A DNA stretch of 64,000 nt from Prauserella halophila. Its GTDB lineage: Bacteria; Actinomycetota; Actinomycetes; Mycobacteriales; Pseudonocardiaceae. The stretch covers positions 62,001 to 126,000 of the forward strand of contig NZ_JAMTCQ010000016.1 of the NCBI RefSeq assembly GCF_024171895.1. The letters are read 5' to 3'. A program made the position numbers and the translations under genes. The notes beneath the pieces are model-generated. The model worked only from the letters and a program-made list of their open reading frames with translations. It was not told the DNA's origin and did not search any database. Below, piece by piece: positions 7,113-24,937 of this stretch. Positions within the stretch are counted from its first letter, which is position 1; each line of letters starts with the position of its first letter.

Positions 7113-7398
7113 GAGTCGATGATGGGGTGCTCGATGCTTCCGATTCCGTCGAGGGACAACAGCAGGGTGTCTCCCGGTCGCAGCCGGCGCCCGGTCTCCA
7201 TGCCGCTACCACCGGGCAGCGTACCGGTGCCGAGCAGTTCGCCGGGACGTAGATGTTCGCTTCGGGAGGCGTGAGCGACGACCTCGCCCAGAGTGTGGCA
7301 TGCCGGCGCTGGACACGGTGGCGACCGTGACCCCGTTGATGGTGACGATTCCGTGCAGATCGTCGGCTGGGCGTAGAACAGCGGCTCGGTCCTCTCAA
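7109..7398 (-). pseudogene. fumarylacetoacetate hydrolase family remnant (truncated and frameshifted)
   Basis: The C-terminal end is recognisable: LGEVVAHASRSEHLRPGELL, then GTGTLPGGSG and RPGDTLLLSLDGIGS, which is the conserved end of the FAH fold. Just upstream the frame changes: DDLHGIVTINGVTVATVSSAGMP continues the FAH sequence in another frame (codons near 7310-7380). Nothing FAH-like precedes this, because the operator region starts at once. About 90 of some 280 codons remain. The stop overlaps the tetR start, so the original arrangement was FAH-tetR. The apparent GTG start at 7417 lies inside an operator and is not real. Confidence 0.75.
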
Positions 7399-21330: not shown

Positions 21331-22248
21331 GTGTCGACGTCGAAGTCCGCTGCCCAGCCGTCCGGTCCCGAGATCGGCACCGCCCGCGTCAAGCGCGGTA
21401 TGGCGGAGATGCTGAAAGGCGGCGTGATCATGGATGTCGTCACGCCGGAGCAGGCGAAGATCGCCGAGGACGCCGGTGCCGTCGCCGTGATGGCACTCGA
21501 GCGCGTGCCCGCCGATATCCGTGCCCAGGGCGGTGTTGCGCGGATGAGCGATCCGGACCTGATCGACGGCATCGTCGACGCGGTGTCGATCCCCGTGATG
21601 GCGAAGGCGCGGATCGGGCACCTCGTCGAGGCGCAGGTGCTGCAGTCGCTCGGCGTCGACTACGTCGACGAGTCCGAAGTGCTCACCCCCGCCGACTACG
21701 CCAACCACATCGACAAGTGGGCGTTCACGGTGCCGTTCGTGTGCGGTGCGACGAACCTCGGCGAGGCGCTGCGGCGGATCACCGAGGGGGCGGCGATGAT
21801 CCGGTCCAAGGGCGAGGCGGGCACGGGCGACGTGTCGAACGCGACCACGCACATGCGGCAGATCCGTGCCGAGCTGCGGAAGCTGGCGGCGCTGCCGGAG
21901 GACGAGCTGTACGTCGCGGCGAAGGAATGGCAGGCGCCGTACGAGCTGGTGCGGGAGGTCGCGGCGACCAGGAAGCTTCCGGTCGTGCTGTTCACCGCGG
22001 GCGGCGTCGCGACGCCCGCCGACGCGGCGATGATGATGCAGCTCGGCGCCGAGGGCGTGTTCGTCGGCTCGGGCATCTTCAAGTCGGGGAATCCGGCCGA
22101 GCGTGCCGAGGCGATCGTCAAGGCGACGACCTTCCACGACGACCCCGACATGCTGGCGAAGGTCTCCCGCGGACTGGGCGATGCGATGGTCGGCATCAAC
22201 GTCGACGACGTCCCCGAACCGCACCGCCTCGCCGAACGCGGCTGGTGA
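21331..22248 (+). CDS. pdxS: pyridoxal 5'-phosphate synthase subunit PdxS
   Basis: The 305-residue (beta/alpha)8 protein keeps the invariant elements of Pdx[19 protein letters not shown], the Schiff-base lysine in [10 protein letters not shown] (Lys92), [15 protein letters not shown], and the phosphate site [19 protein letters not shown]. With PdxT it makes PLP from ribose 5-phosphate, glyceraldehyde 3-phosphate and ammonia. GTG 21331 has GAAAGG upstream. The last 39 bases are repeated exactly at 23818-23856, and pdxT, normally close by, is 4.7 kb away. The gene itself is intact. Confidence 0.97.
22210..22248. repeat. 39-bp direct repeat, left copy (3' end of pdxS)
   Basis: It covers the last 13 codons of pdxS including the stop codon and is identical to 23818-23856. 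It is the likely left attachment site. Confidence 0.9.
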
Positions 22249-22434
22249 GGTGTCCTGGTGGGGGCGCATTGTCGCTCTCGCCGGGAACTTCGCGTTCGCG
22301 TCTGCCGGCGACGAGAGTGGTTCGAGCTGACGGTCCAGGGTGAGGGGACGTCGGCAGTTAGGTGCAGACGGAGCGATGGCCGGATCGCGTTGCGAGCATG
22401 TAGCTGAGCGCGGTCACCTCGACGGGTGGCACTG

Positions 22435-23247
22435 TCAGTTGCGGTTCAATCCGTGCCTGCGTGTGTCGAGGGCGAGCTTGAAGTGGCTCTCGGTTGCGTC
22501 GATCTCGCGGGTGGGAGTCGCGGGATCGAACACGCGCAGCAGGGAGAAGCGGAAGCTGGTTGGCCTGACGTTGCGCAGCTCGACGTTGCCGCCGTGGCCG
22601 TTGGTCACGTAGGCGTTCCAGCGTTGGCGGATGCTCTCCGCGCCCTCGGCCTTGCCAACGTATTGGCGGCCGTCACGGGTGTCCGTGATTAGGTAGACGC
22701 CGGTAACCGATGCCAGCGCGGTGCGCCAGGAGGCGTAGCGGTGGTCACGCATCACGGCCTGGAGCTGGACGTAGTCGAGCACGAGCTGGTCGAAGCCTGG
22801 GAATGGGATCGGCTCCGCGTCGGCGATCTCCATGACTGGGTAGTCGGCGGCTGTCGTGGCGTTGATGCGCCAAGCGCGCGGCGATCTCCAGCCGATCACC
22901 AGCCGGTTTCGCAGGTCCGCCAGTTGCTCGGATCGAGTCAGGTCAAAGGTGCGGAGCGTCCCGTCGTTCGATGTCTCGCCGCGGTTCTCCAGCACCGACC
23001 AGAGCCTGGCCCTGTCACCGCCTTCCCGGATGAAGATGAGCCACAGGCGGGGAGGGGCGGCCGGGAAAACGCGTGGCTTCGCGGACTGCTGGCTGGTGTA
23101 GCGCAGGATCTCATCATCGGTGGAGTCCGCGTGGAGGCCGGGCAAGCCGCTGTCCTCGTGCTCGCGCACGTAGGCATGGCGGATTACATGGGCGTCGGCA
23201 GGATCGATACCTGCACTGTGCAGAATCGGACCGAATGTGAGTCCCAT
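22435..23247 (-). CDS. GIY-YIG nuclease-domain protein with unknown N-terminal domain
   Basis: The 270-residue protein ends in a GIY-YIG domain (181-270): TGVYLI (GVY 183-185), QYVGKAEG (YVG 196-198), IRQRW with Arg206 and Arg209, Glu253 in ATESHF as the metal ligand, and a terminal Asn. The first 180 residues contain an alpha/beta stretch (APPRLWLIFIREGG...) that I cannot name. GIY-YIG enzymes cut DNA in homing, repair, restriction and defence; this fusion type is typed only as a GIY-YIG family protein. ATG 23247 has GAAGGAGAG upstream. It is the only intact gene between the 39-bp repeats. Confidence 0.8.
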   Translation of the reverse strand: MGLTFGPILHSAGIDPADAHVIRHAYVREHEDSGLPGLHADSTDDEILRYTSQQSAKPRVFPAAPPRLWLIFIREGGDRARLWSVLENRGETSNDGTLRTFDLTRSEQLADLRNRLVIGWRSPRAWRINATTAADYPVMEIADAEPIPFPGFDQLVLDYVQLQAVMRDHRYASWRTALASVTGVYLITDTRDGRQYVGKAEGAESIRQRWNAYVTNGHGGNVELRNVRPTSFRFSLLRVFDPATPTREIDATESHFKLALDTRRHGLNRN

Positions 23248-23433
23248 TTTCGCGTCGTCTCTCCTTCAGGTCTCTCGCGAGAACAAGTCCCGTGATTTCC
23301 TCTCGGGTGGCGACATGCGCCGGAGCGTGGGCCCCCCGCACCTCGGCGCGCTGCTGTGACAGGTCGGTGTTCGTCGTACGACCACTGAGGAACTCGGGCA
23401 ACGCGAATGGGTCGAGTGCGAGTTGTCTGCCCG

Positions 23434-23654
23434 TCAGCGCAGTTCTTCGCGGTCTTCACGGATGACCGCGACGAGGGTTTCGCGAGGAATGCCGCCGTGC
23501 TCGCGGCGGCGCGGTCCAAGAGCTCCGATACGGACGGCCCGGATCGCGCGAACTCGGCGTGCTGGCGATCGAAATACGTCTGCAGGTCGAAGGTGTCGGT
23601 CCTGGGCGCTGACGGACCTTCTGGTGTGTGGTCGCGCCATGCGTTGTCGGTCAT
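23434..23654 (-). pseudogene. frameshifted small gene, about 73 codons
   Basis: From ATG 23654 a protein-like frame runs MTDNAWRDHTPEGPSAPRTD ... PSVSELLDRAA, then loses sense. In the next frame it continues sensibly as REHGGIPRETLVAVIREDRE and stops at 23434. One inserted or deleted base near 23505-23515, in a GCC-GCC-GCG run, explains the break. The short size and the basic/acidic helical end look antitoxin-like, but I recognise no family. A sequencing slip in the GC run is possible. Confidence 0.5.
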
Positions 23655-23817
23655 GTCGCAAGGTTAGCGTCGACCACCGACGATTCTCGCGATTCGCGCG
23701 CGGCCTGCGCGTGGTCGGGCGGCCAGGTGCTTTCCGGCGCACCACCGACGGTACTTCGGAGGCTAGAAGTTCCGGGGATGCGAGTTCTGAGGTGCGTACT
23801 CGTTGCCGAAATTCCGG

Positions 23818-23856
23818 GTCCCCGAACCGCACCGCCTCGCCGAACGCGGCTGGTGA
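23818..23856. repeat. 39-bp direct repeat, right copy
   Basis: It is identical over 39 bases to the 3' end of pdxS (22210-22248), and the base before it differs. It is the likely right attachment site. The sequence after it can form a terminator that would have served pdxS before the insertion. Confidence 0.9.
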
Positions 23857-23863
23857 CGGCAAC

Positions 23864-23908
23864 GCCCGGCGGCAGAAGGCCGAGTGTTCGGCTCATCCGT
23901 CGCCGGGC
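23864..23908 (+). terminator. hairpin just after the right repeat, possible original pdxS terminator
   Basis: GCCCGGCGGC pairs with GTCGCCGGGC (one G-T pair), with a nested GCCGA/TCGGC stem. It lies 8 bases after the duplicated pdxS stop codon. Confidence 0.45.
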
Positions 23909-23935
23909 TGCGTCGTGCGTGCCGCGCGGCGCGGG

Positions 23936-24263
23936 CTACTCTTCGTCGGCGACGGCCTTCATCGCCTTCCAGCCGTGAGTGACGCCGCCGCCGGCGCGCA
24001 GGGCGGCGGCGACCATGACCGCTTCGGCGACCGCGGCTTTGGGTGCTCCGGCCTTGACCGCGCTTGGCGTGGTCCTCGATGCAGTACGCGCACTGGGTGG
24101 TCACCGCGACCCCGACCGCGATCATCTCCCGGATGGCCAGGTCGAGGTTTCCCGGGTTCTTGTCGAACACGGCTTTGTCGAACCCGAAGAAGGCCGAGAC
24201 CACGTCCGGCGCGGCCTCCTTGATGTCGGCCAGGAACGCGGCTTCCTCGTGGTGAGAGTGCAT
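23936..24263 (-). pseudogene. carboxymuconolactone decarboxylase / AhpD-like gene with one frameshift
   Basis: From ATG 24263 the sequence is a clear AhpD-like peroxidatic domain: FFGFDKAVFDKNPGNLD, then MIAVGVAVTTQCAYCIEDHAK with the redox pair Cys58/Cys61 and His65. Right after DHAKR (near 24060) the frame breaks. In the next frame the family sequence resumes as AVKAGAPKAAVAEAVMVAA ... GWKAMKAVADEE and stops at 23936. Restoring one base in the GCGC run would give about 109 residues. The product as read is a truncated oxidoreductase with a foreign tail. A sequencing slip cannot be excluded. Confidence 0.78.
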
Positions 24264-24317
24264 CTGCGGTTTCTTTCGTGTGCCCTGTTCGTCCGGAATC
24301 CCGGCTCCTCACGCTCA

Positions 24318-24352
24318 ACCCGACGCATAGGGGGTATCCCTACGCGTTGGGT
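24318..24352. promoter_or_regulatory. imperfect inverted repeat before the AhpD-like gene
   Basis: The 15-base arms (24318-24332 with 24338-24352) pair with two G-T mismatches. The core TAGGGGGTATCCCTA resembles the G-rich GGGGTAT half-sites of CsoR/CstR-type operators. It lies 55 bases before the AhpD-like start, so it is a plausible operator; no CsoR gene is in the window. Confidence 0.4.
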
Positions 24353-24635
24353 CGCTCGATCGGGAAACGCGGGAGGTTCTGCGCAGGCTGTTGCCGAGGT
24401 GCTGGCCGAGTTCGACGGGGTTCGCGCCGGTGGCGTGCCGCGTGAGGATCACGGCCAGTGCTCTGAAACGACGATCCGCCGATTCGGAGCAATCACCGTC
24501 TCGGAACGAGTGGCGAGGAACTGGCCGGGGTGACCGTGACGTCGATCGTCGAAGCGGCCGTCACGCCGGAGTAGTGGGGGCACCGAATGACCGATACGAC
24601 CGAACGGATTCCGGAGGCGATCGCGCAGGAGCTTC
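24353..24635. other. gene-poor, decayed stretch
   Basis: I see no intact gene here. Short protein-like pieces appear in different frames (for example VAEVLAEFDGVRAGGVP rightward and RHATGANPVELGQHLGNSLR leftward) without a start or continuation. A tiny frame MTDTTERIPEAIAQELLSGG starts at 24587 and stops at once. Confidence 0.4.
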
Positions 24636-24669
24636 TTTCCGGAGGGTGCTGATTTCCGGAGGGCGCTGA
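24636..24669 (+). repeat. 17-bp tandem duplication
   Basis: TTTCCGGAGGGYGCTGA occurs twice back to back (24636-24652 and 24653-24669, one mismatch). The length is not a multiple of three, so it would break any frame across it. Confidence 0.7.
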
Positions 24670-24678
24670 ACGAGGCTC

Positions 24679-24910
24679 TCCAGCGAGGATGCCGACGAGG
24701 TTGTCGCCGATCTGGCGGCATTCCCCGTGGCGCTCGCCGCATCGCGGGCTGATACCGCGTGTGTGGGAACTCCGGCACTCGATCACGCCGTACGACGCCG
24801 CGTATGTTGCGCTTGCTGAGCAGCTCGATATTCCGTTGCTCACCACCGATGCCAGGCTCGCCGGATCCAACGGGCACAGCGCCGAGATCGAGTTGTATCC
24901 CGTGTCCTGA
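24679..24910 (+). pseudogene. VapC (PIN-domain) toxin remnant
   Basis: The end is a clear PIN-domain C-terminus: RVWELRHSITPYDAAYVALA, then EQLDIPLLTTDARLAGS and a closing AEIELYPVS. The Asp of YDAAY and the Asp of TTDARL are PIN acidic positions. Upstream, DADEVVADLAAFPV continues the family pattern but in another frame, so at least one frameshift is present, and the first third including the first catalytic Asp is missing. A VapB-like FRRALNEALQRG stretch just before it may be what is left of the antitoxin. No function is expected. Confidence 0.65.
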
Positions 24911-24937
24911 CCTGGTGGCAGGTGCCGCGTCGCGCGC

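Follow-up and report, generated by a model that had tools for sequence, protein, structure and literature searches.

A predicted Uzume defence gene in an integrase-less insertion between two copies of the pdxS 3' end in Prauserella halophila

The pdxS 3' end is present twice

In Prauserella halophila, a second copy of the 3' end of the vitamin B6 gene pdxS lies 1.6 kb downstream of the gene itself, which raises the question of how the DNA between the two copies arrived there, and whether this gene end can act as an integration site. We addressed this in a window of 64,000 nucleotides (the whole stretch of DNA analysed, part of a genome of 5.05 Mb in 16 contigs), for which the initial annotation had proposed an integrase-less mini element with a GIY-YIG gene and a perfect 39-bp repeat of the pdxS end, the footprint of site-specific integration. 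The features on which the argument rests are given below, by position in the window.

21331-22248, + strand: pdxS, with the insertion site at its 3' end and the frame intact up to the stop codon at 22248
22210-22248, + strand: left copy of the 39-bp repeat, with which the functional pdxS gene ends (exact match to 23818-23856)
22249-22300, + strand: terminator-like hairpin inside the insertion, directly after the restored pdxS stop codon and without a T run (fold of 22240-22300)
22249-22434, no strand assigned: left inner flank, without a convincing relative (search of 386 family genomes)
22435-23247, - strand: uzuA, intact gene for a predicted GIY-YIG nuclease, Uzume defence gene (PADLOC PDLC03973 and Pfam GIY-YIG)
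23434-23654, - strand: VapB-like antitoxin gene with a broken frame (identity to the gene after pdxS in congener G004)
23818-23856, + strand: right copy of the 39-bp repeat, originally the end of pdxS (pdxS-downstream DNA of congeners G005 and G006 aligns directly 3' of it)
23857-23916, + strand: original pdxS terminator-like hairpin (fold, and a stretch common to G005 and G006)

The repeat is as perfect as had been claimed: the two copies are the same at 39/39 bases with a start-to-start spacing of 1,608, the repeat and the pdxS stop codon end on the same base, and the next base differs (G vs C). Similarity to pdxS starts abruptly at the second copy, as none was found in the DNA ahead of it. 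A pdxS orthologue is present in 59/60 genomes searched (own included), and the final 90 bases of the gene were searched for downstream of pdxS in 67 loci. These comprised 60 loci matching a degenerate pattern for the encoded pdxS end (which reaches only genomes with that end) together with G185, five congeners and the window, with G246 (28 kb) outside the set; 12 kb was read in 60 of the loci and 2.7-6.5 kb in the other seven, the downstream DNA of G107, G185 and the congeners being shorter than 12 kb. The window scored 39 and G185 scored 25, whereas the other 65 loci reached at most 15 on the same strand and 17 on the opposite strand, and a reversed-sequence control at most 16, from which it is clear that the 39-base repeat is not a chance match. 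Only the window and G185 had a second pdxS end that stood out, so such duplications are rare.

Single copies and an empty site in congeners

The empty site was predicted by joining the flanks of the insertion in silico, and was then aligned to the congeners. The alignment runs through the predicted junction in G005 (88% over 695 columns), as it does in G006 (89% over 310 columns). For G002, G003 and G004 the first alignment ends at the pdxS stop codon or at most 2 bases after it because their downstream regions differ. The pdxS-end pattern has one match per whole genome in G002-G006 (5/5 readable congeners); the sixth, G001, was set aside, as its last PdxS residues differ, the pattern has no match and its contig ends approximately 0.8 kb past the gene. 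No match to uzuA was found in any of the six congeners. The proposed check for empty sites with a single repeat copy in related genomes thus came out in favour of an insertion, with single copies in all five readable congeners and a contiguous empty junction in two, and relatives that lack the gene yet carry both copies, which would have spoken against it, were not found among the five.

The stretch between the repeats is a real insertion, with pdxS intact and no integrase gene between the copies. Its G+C content is 65.6%, versus 70.3% for the window and 69.7% for pdxS. The left inner flank (22249-22434) was searched in 386 family genomes including the six congeners, and only short matches were found: 54 genomes have a match at E<=0.01 (own included), and the best foreign one reaches 45.5 bits over query bases 25-81.

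Both pdxS ends are followed by a potential terminator-like hairpin, although at both copies the z-scores vary with the borders chosen. After the first copy, the fold of 22240-22300 has an energy of -35.6 kcal/mol (z -4.34), and with the wider borders 22249-22330 the z-score is -1.46. The initial annotation had placed a terminator suited to pdxS to the right of the element, and there the fold of 23857-23916 reaches -37.2 kcal/mol (z -4.17, or -0.54 with borders 23850-23900) in a stretch that is common to G005 and G006; the second copy and this hairpin together (23818-23916) are 87% identical to G006 over 100 columns.

The intact cargo gene belongs to the Uzume defence family

The protein encoded at 22435-23247 had been put forward as a possible mobility, defence or addiction factor, and of these its family points to defence. 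The UzuA protein (270 aa) matches the PADLOC profile PDLC03973 over its full length (residues 2-270 of 270, E 5e-94), while the Pfam GIY-YIG match is weak (residues 183-257, E 6.8e-5, 23.5 bits vs a cut-off of 22.6). Residues G183, Y185, Y196, G198, R209 and E253, which we take to be the GIY-YIG catalytic residues, are all present and invariant or nearly so among 34 sequences. The sole solved relative by sequence at E<=0.01 is the intron-associated endonuclease 1ln0 (E 0.0057, query residues 182-268). The predicted nuclease is therefore a member of a known defence family, and it may have anti-phage activity.

Excerpts of PMC10482375 and PMC12926258 place Uzume among defence systems of unknown mechanism, and one of these two also has it in a set of systems enriched in Actinobacteria. 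The gene in the window conforms to this family in its full-length profile match, its intact GIY-YIG residues, its single-gene organisation and its actinobacterial relatives; no difference was found at the protein level, and what sets it apart is the pdxS setting, which was not seen at 55 other uzuA loci. Another protein that combines a GIY-YIG nuclease with a second domain is CMoRE (PD-T4-3), a single-component type IV restriction enzyme according to an excerpt of PMC12923530, in which the GIY-YIG domain is N-terminal whereas that of UzuA is C-terminal; the likeness drawn here is one of domain description.

The uzuA gene has a single match in its own genome and is found in 4 of the 100 nearest genomes (own included). 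The 55 loci from a scan of genome contigs are 70-88% identical and come from many actinobacterial genera, with one record labelled Acidobacteria, and none of them (0/55) has pdxS in the DNA of up to 6 kb read on each side of the gene. Among plasmids, 391/72,556 records match UzuA, 34 of them over at least 80% of the protein, with three Nocardioides or Pimelobacter plasmids at 76%. Viral contigs gave eight pattern matches for uzuA relatives, none of which was confirmed, and 3/50,697 phage records contain a match, which is partial. DNA similarity among uzuA loci ends within approximately 20 bp of the gene on both sides, as expected if it is cargo that moves between contexts, and the spread of uzuA looks horizontal.

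One of these loci (L012 851-7264, Nakamurella) has uzuA in a 6.3-kb islet flanked by two 43-bp copies of a tRNA-Lys end, one at 851 and one at 7181; the two other genes scanned between the repeats encode a DUF4011-helicase-nuclease and an IS3-type transposase piece, and no integrase was seen. At four other uzuA loci near a tRNA gene (L027, L032, L046 and L056), a repeat of the tRNA 3' end is absent within 8 kb on the 3' side. Separately, an Arthrobacter uzuA (L049 5598-6702) is broken by an apparent inversion, with the last approximately 41 codons lying upstream on the other strand; there is no exact inverted repeat of at least 9 bases between the stretches around the breakpoints.

A VapB-like remnant in a variable interval

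The small broken gene noted between the repeats could be identified as a frameshifted VapB-like antitoxin gene (23434-23654). It has 55% identity over 47 aa to the gene following pdxS in G004, with its opposite end in another frame and the upstream DNA also shared, and matches were found in 7/200 genomes (own included). A VapB relative stands right after pdxS, together with VapC, in both G004 and G006. In a survey of 76 loci from 74 distinct genomes (two genomes occurring twice), vapC and/or vapB are located at most 3.5 kb downstream of and convergent with pdxS in 9/74 genomes (one a partial match, one vapB alone), and vapBC has the same direction as pdxS in 2/74 (G004 and G006). In the insertion, vapB is convergent with pdxS and uzuA stands in the place of vapC. 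The segment 23550-23691 also matches DNA approximately 0.6-0.7 kb downstream of pdxS in G205 (L151), with 69% identity over 143 columns in the same orientation. A 59-column match (46.4 bits) links 23679-23736 with DNA close to the XRE gene in G006; it is no more than suggestive, with random-segment controls (at most 60 each) reaching 33.7 and 40.1 bits.

Pieces of another vapB (24390-24446) and of vapC (approximately 24731-24922) lie to the right of the insertion, out of their usual order. DNA matches suggested a single vapB split by inversion into halves inside and outside the insertion, and this was dropped: the inner copy keeps a VapB-like end in another frame, and is therefore taken as a separate, frameshifted gene. 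The region 24000-24922 holds an AhpD/CMD-like gene, with a broken frame when compared with G005 DNA, and after it the vapB/vapC remnants. It appears to be a decayed and rearranged part of the interval between pdxS and the XRE gene, an interval that is generally variable among relatives: where the XRE motif was found among the 67 loci, the pdxS-to-XRE distance ranges from approximately 430 to approximately 10,500 bases, mostly without a pdxS-end repeat.

Other insertions at the pdxS end

The pdxS-end pattern was matched in 187/390 family genomes, with two matches in four (the window's genome, G185, G246 and G320), and in 186/394 class genomes, with two matches in three besides the window's genome. 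G493, G794 and G804 were rejected as insertions, as their two pdxS ends belong to two pdxS reading frames, complete or at a contig edge. In G320 there is a fragment of approximately 150 bp of the pdxS end with terminator-like sequence (L107 9081-9233), on another contig than the full pdxS. The pattern had no matches in viral contigs.

The insertion in G185 (L095 2002-6477) has a spacing of 4,475 bp and encodes an asparagine synthase, a transglutaminase-like protein and a PCMT methyltransferase, which we read as a lasso-peptide-like gene set, while that in G246 (L096/L097, C1:615743-643808) has a spacing of 28,033 bp and contains NRPS/PKS-like genes, group II intron reverse transcriptases and transposase pieces. 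Among ten proteins scanned from the two insertions there was no tyrosine or serine recombinase. Their distal junctions have a common arm and core (GGSATCAACGT), and a search with the arm-plus-core pattern at up to 3 mismatches found only these two among the 390 family genomes. Both have a 21-bp motif, TCAAYYTTRGACCACGGSRTC, at both ends (exact in G185, with 1 and 2 mismatches in G246), which recurs approximately 97 bp after the proximal stop codon; at up to 2 mismatches there are two matches in each of these genomes and none elsewhere in either, and none in four other genomes tested, the window's genome included. In G185 the gene-side pdxS end has changed codons, as if it had been brought in.

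We take these two, from the features of their ends, as site-specific insertions of one class, in a genus other than that of the window. As they lie at the same gene end and share an end motif, pdxS can serve as an attachment gene; a literature search found no paper naming it as an integration site. The window's insertion has in common with them the gene end, the duplicated pdxS end and the lack of a recombinase among scanned proteins. The shared 21-bp motif, a junction 18 nt further upstream than the start of the window's repeat, and the codon-changed gene-side end of G185 are their own and are not seen in the window, the insertion of which, to judge from its ends, falls outside their class. 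A second genome with the same ends as the window's insertion was not found among the pattern-matched family (187/390) and class (186/394) genomes, and within this reach a larger integrase-bearing element with the same core, for which the proposed check was to look, did not turn up.

How the insertion may have arisen

The reading that we prefer, tentatively, is integration of an integrase-less element at a specific gene end. DNA with UzuA, a single-gene anti-phage system, and with a decayed gene for a VapB-like antitoxin would have entered the pdxS 3' end by recombination specific to that end, the incoming piece bringing its own copy of the last 39 pdxS bases and its own terminator-like hairpin, so that pdxS would have stayed whole and its original end would have been pushed 1.6 kb away. 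The recombinase would have been lost or never present, leaving an islet that could move only with an integrase supplied from elsewhere. In favour are the sharp gene-end repeat, the restored gene, the hairpin after its stop codon, the foreign cargo and the lower G+C content, as well as the precedents of G185 and G246 at the same gene end and of uzuA in the repeat-flanked Nakamurella islet. Against it, there is no recombinase between the copies, as the initial annotation had it, and none of the eight PF00589 hits of the genome (tyrosine recombinases, one with an internal stop) lies in the window; nor is there an end motif, since neither the best direct nor the best inverted match of the two inner ends reaches the 95% mark of shuffles (inverted, a best score of 8 vs 10). 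Also against it are the failure to find, within the reach of the pattern, another genome with these ends or a matching viral contig, and a repeat start that lies 18 nt 3' of the junction in G185 and G246. Furthermore, the 39 bases equal those of the host exactly, where congeners differ at 0 to 3 of these positions, and this counts against integration because a foreign element is expected to differ, as that of G185 does. The VapB-like remnant, finally, suggests DNA with an earlier linkage to pdxS.

The chief rival, which we regard as possible though doubtful, builds on this last point: the pdxS end of a related donor, with uzuA and vapB downstream of it, would have been imported by homologous recombination inside pdxS on one side and an illegitimate join 39 bases before the resident stop codon on the other, and the second copy would be the leftover tail of the resident pdxS and not an att site. 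Such import needs neither integrase nor end motif, equal 39-mers are natural with a close donor, and it fits the orientation of vapB in the insertion, which is that of the convergent vapBC of the family (9/74 genomes) with uzuA where vapC is expected, the match of 23550-23691 to the pdxS-downstream DNA of G205, and a rearrangement-prone neighbourhood with disordered vapB/vapC fragments and a pdxS-XRE distance of such range. It has to contend with the 0/55 uzuA loci with pdxS nearby, with a left inner flank that has no convincing relative even in the congeners, and with a similarity of pdxS to five congeners that does not drop near the gene end. We consider it improbable that a staggered break in pdxS was repaired by fill-in, with end joining or a transposase attaching the foreign DNA and the 39 bases being doubled. 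This would give the 39/39 identity for free without an integrase gene between the copies, but the block would stop at the final base of the stop codon by mere coincidence, target duplications are usually shorter than 39 bases, and for the transposase version there is no terminal inverted repeat above shuffles (as no transposase was recognised between the repeats either, the insertion does not present as a DNA transposon). Scarcely credible is an ordinary tandem duplication or assembly error at pdxS, for which the repeat itself speaks and nothing more, against the single copies in the congeners, the contiguous empty site in two of them and the absence of uzuA from all six.

Of the footprint of site-specific integration that was originally proposed, the insertion, the gene-end repeat and the empty site stand, whereas an origin by recombinase is a tentative reading, with no same-ended genome among those the pattern reaches, no end motif and a VapB remnant that also fits import. 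For the integration that we prefer, we infer the action of an integrase, which copy is element-derived and any present mobility. An excerpt of PMC5704250 describes a cis-mobilizable element (CIME) as one that has lost its integration and transfer genes and has kept attL and attR. The window's insertion resembles this in its flanking direct repeats at a gene end and in that no integration or transfer gene was seen (PF00589 search; only uzuA and the broken vapB recognised); the class is defined by an ICE or IME origin and by att function, while the insertion is likened to it by anatomy, from sequence alone. The best label for it is that of a small defence islet with CIME-like anatomy, located at an unusual gene end.

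Implications

A known but mechanistically uncharacterised defence gene is seen here moving as almost naked cargo, and the end of a vitamin B6 gene appears as an unusual insertion site, with biosynthetic genes inserted there in two relatives. It is conceivable, if unlikely, that in this actinomycete family the pdxS 3' end is an attachment site for several unrelated families of integrase-less elements moved in trans, for which UzuA, lasso-peptide and NRPS/PKS genes would be cargo that can be exchanged; the insertion in the window would be the smallest example, in effect one defence gene with its own att sites. If the 39-bp copies do not recombine, the locus would be a clean example of gene-end repeats mistaken for att sites, and if they do, it would offer a defence cassette of one gene together with a chromosomal attachment site that could be put to use. 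Although the protein belongs to a known family, its site in the genome is unusual, and the connection to the two biosynthetic insertions at the pdxS end is noteworthy.
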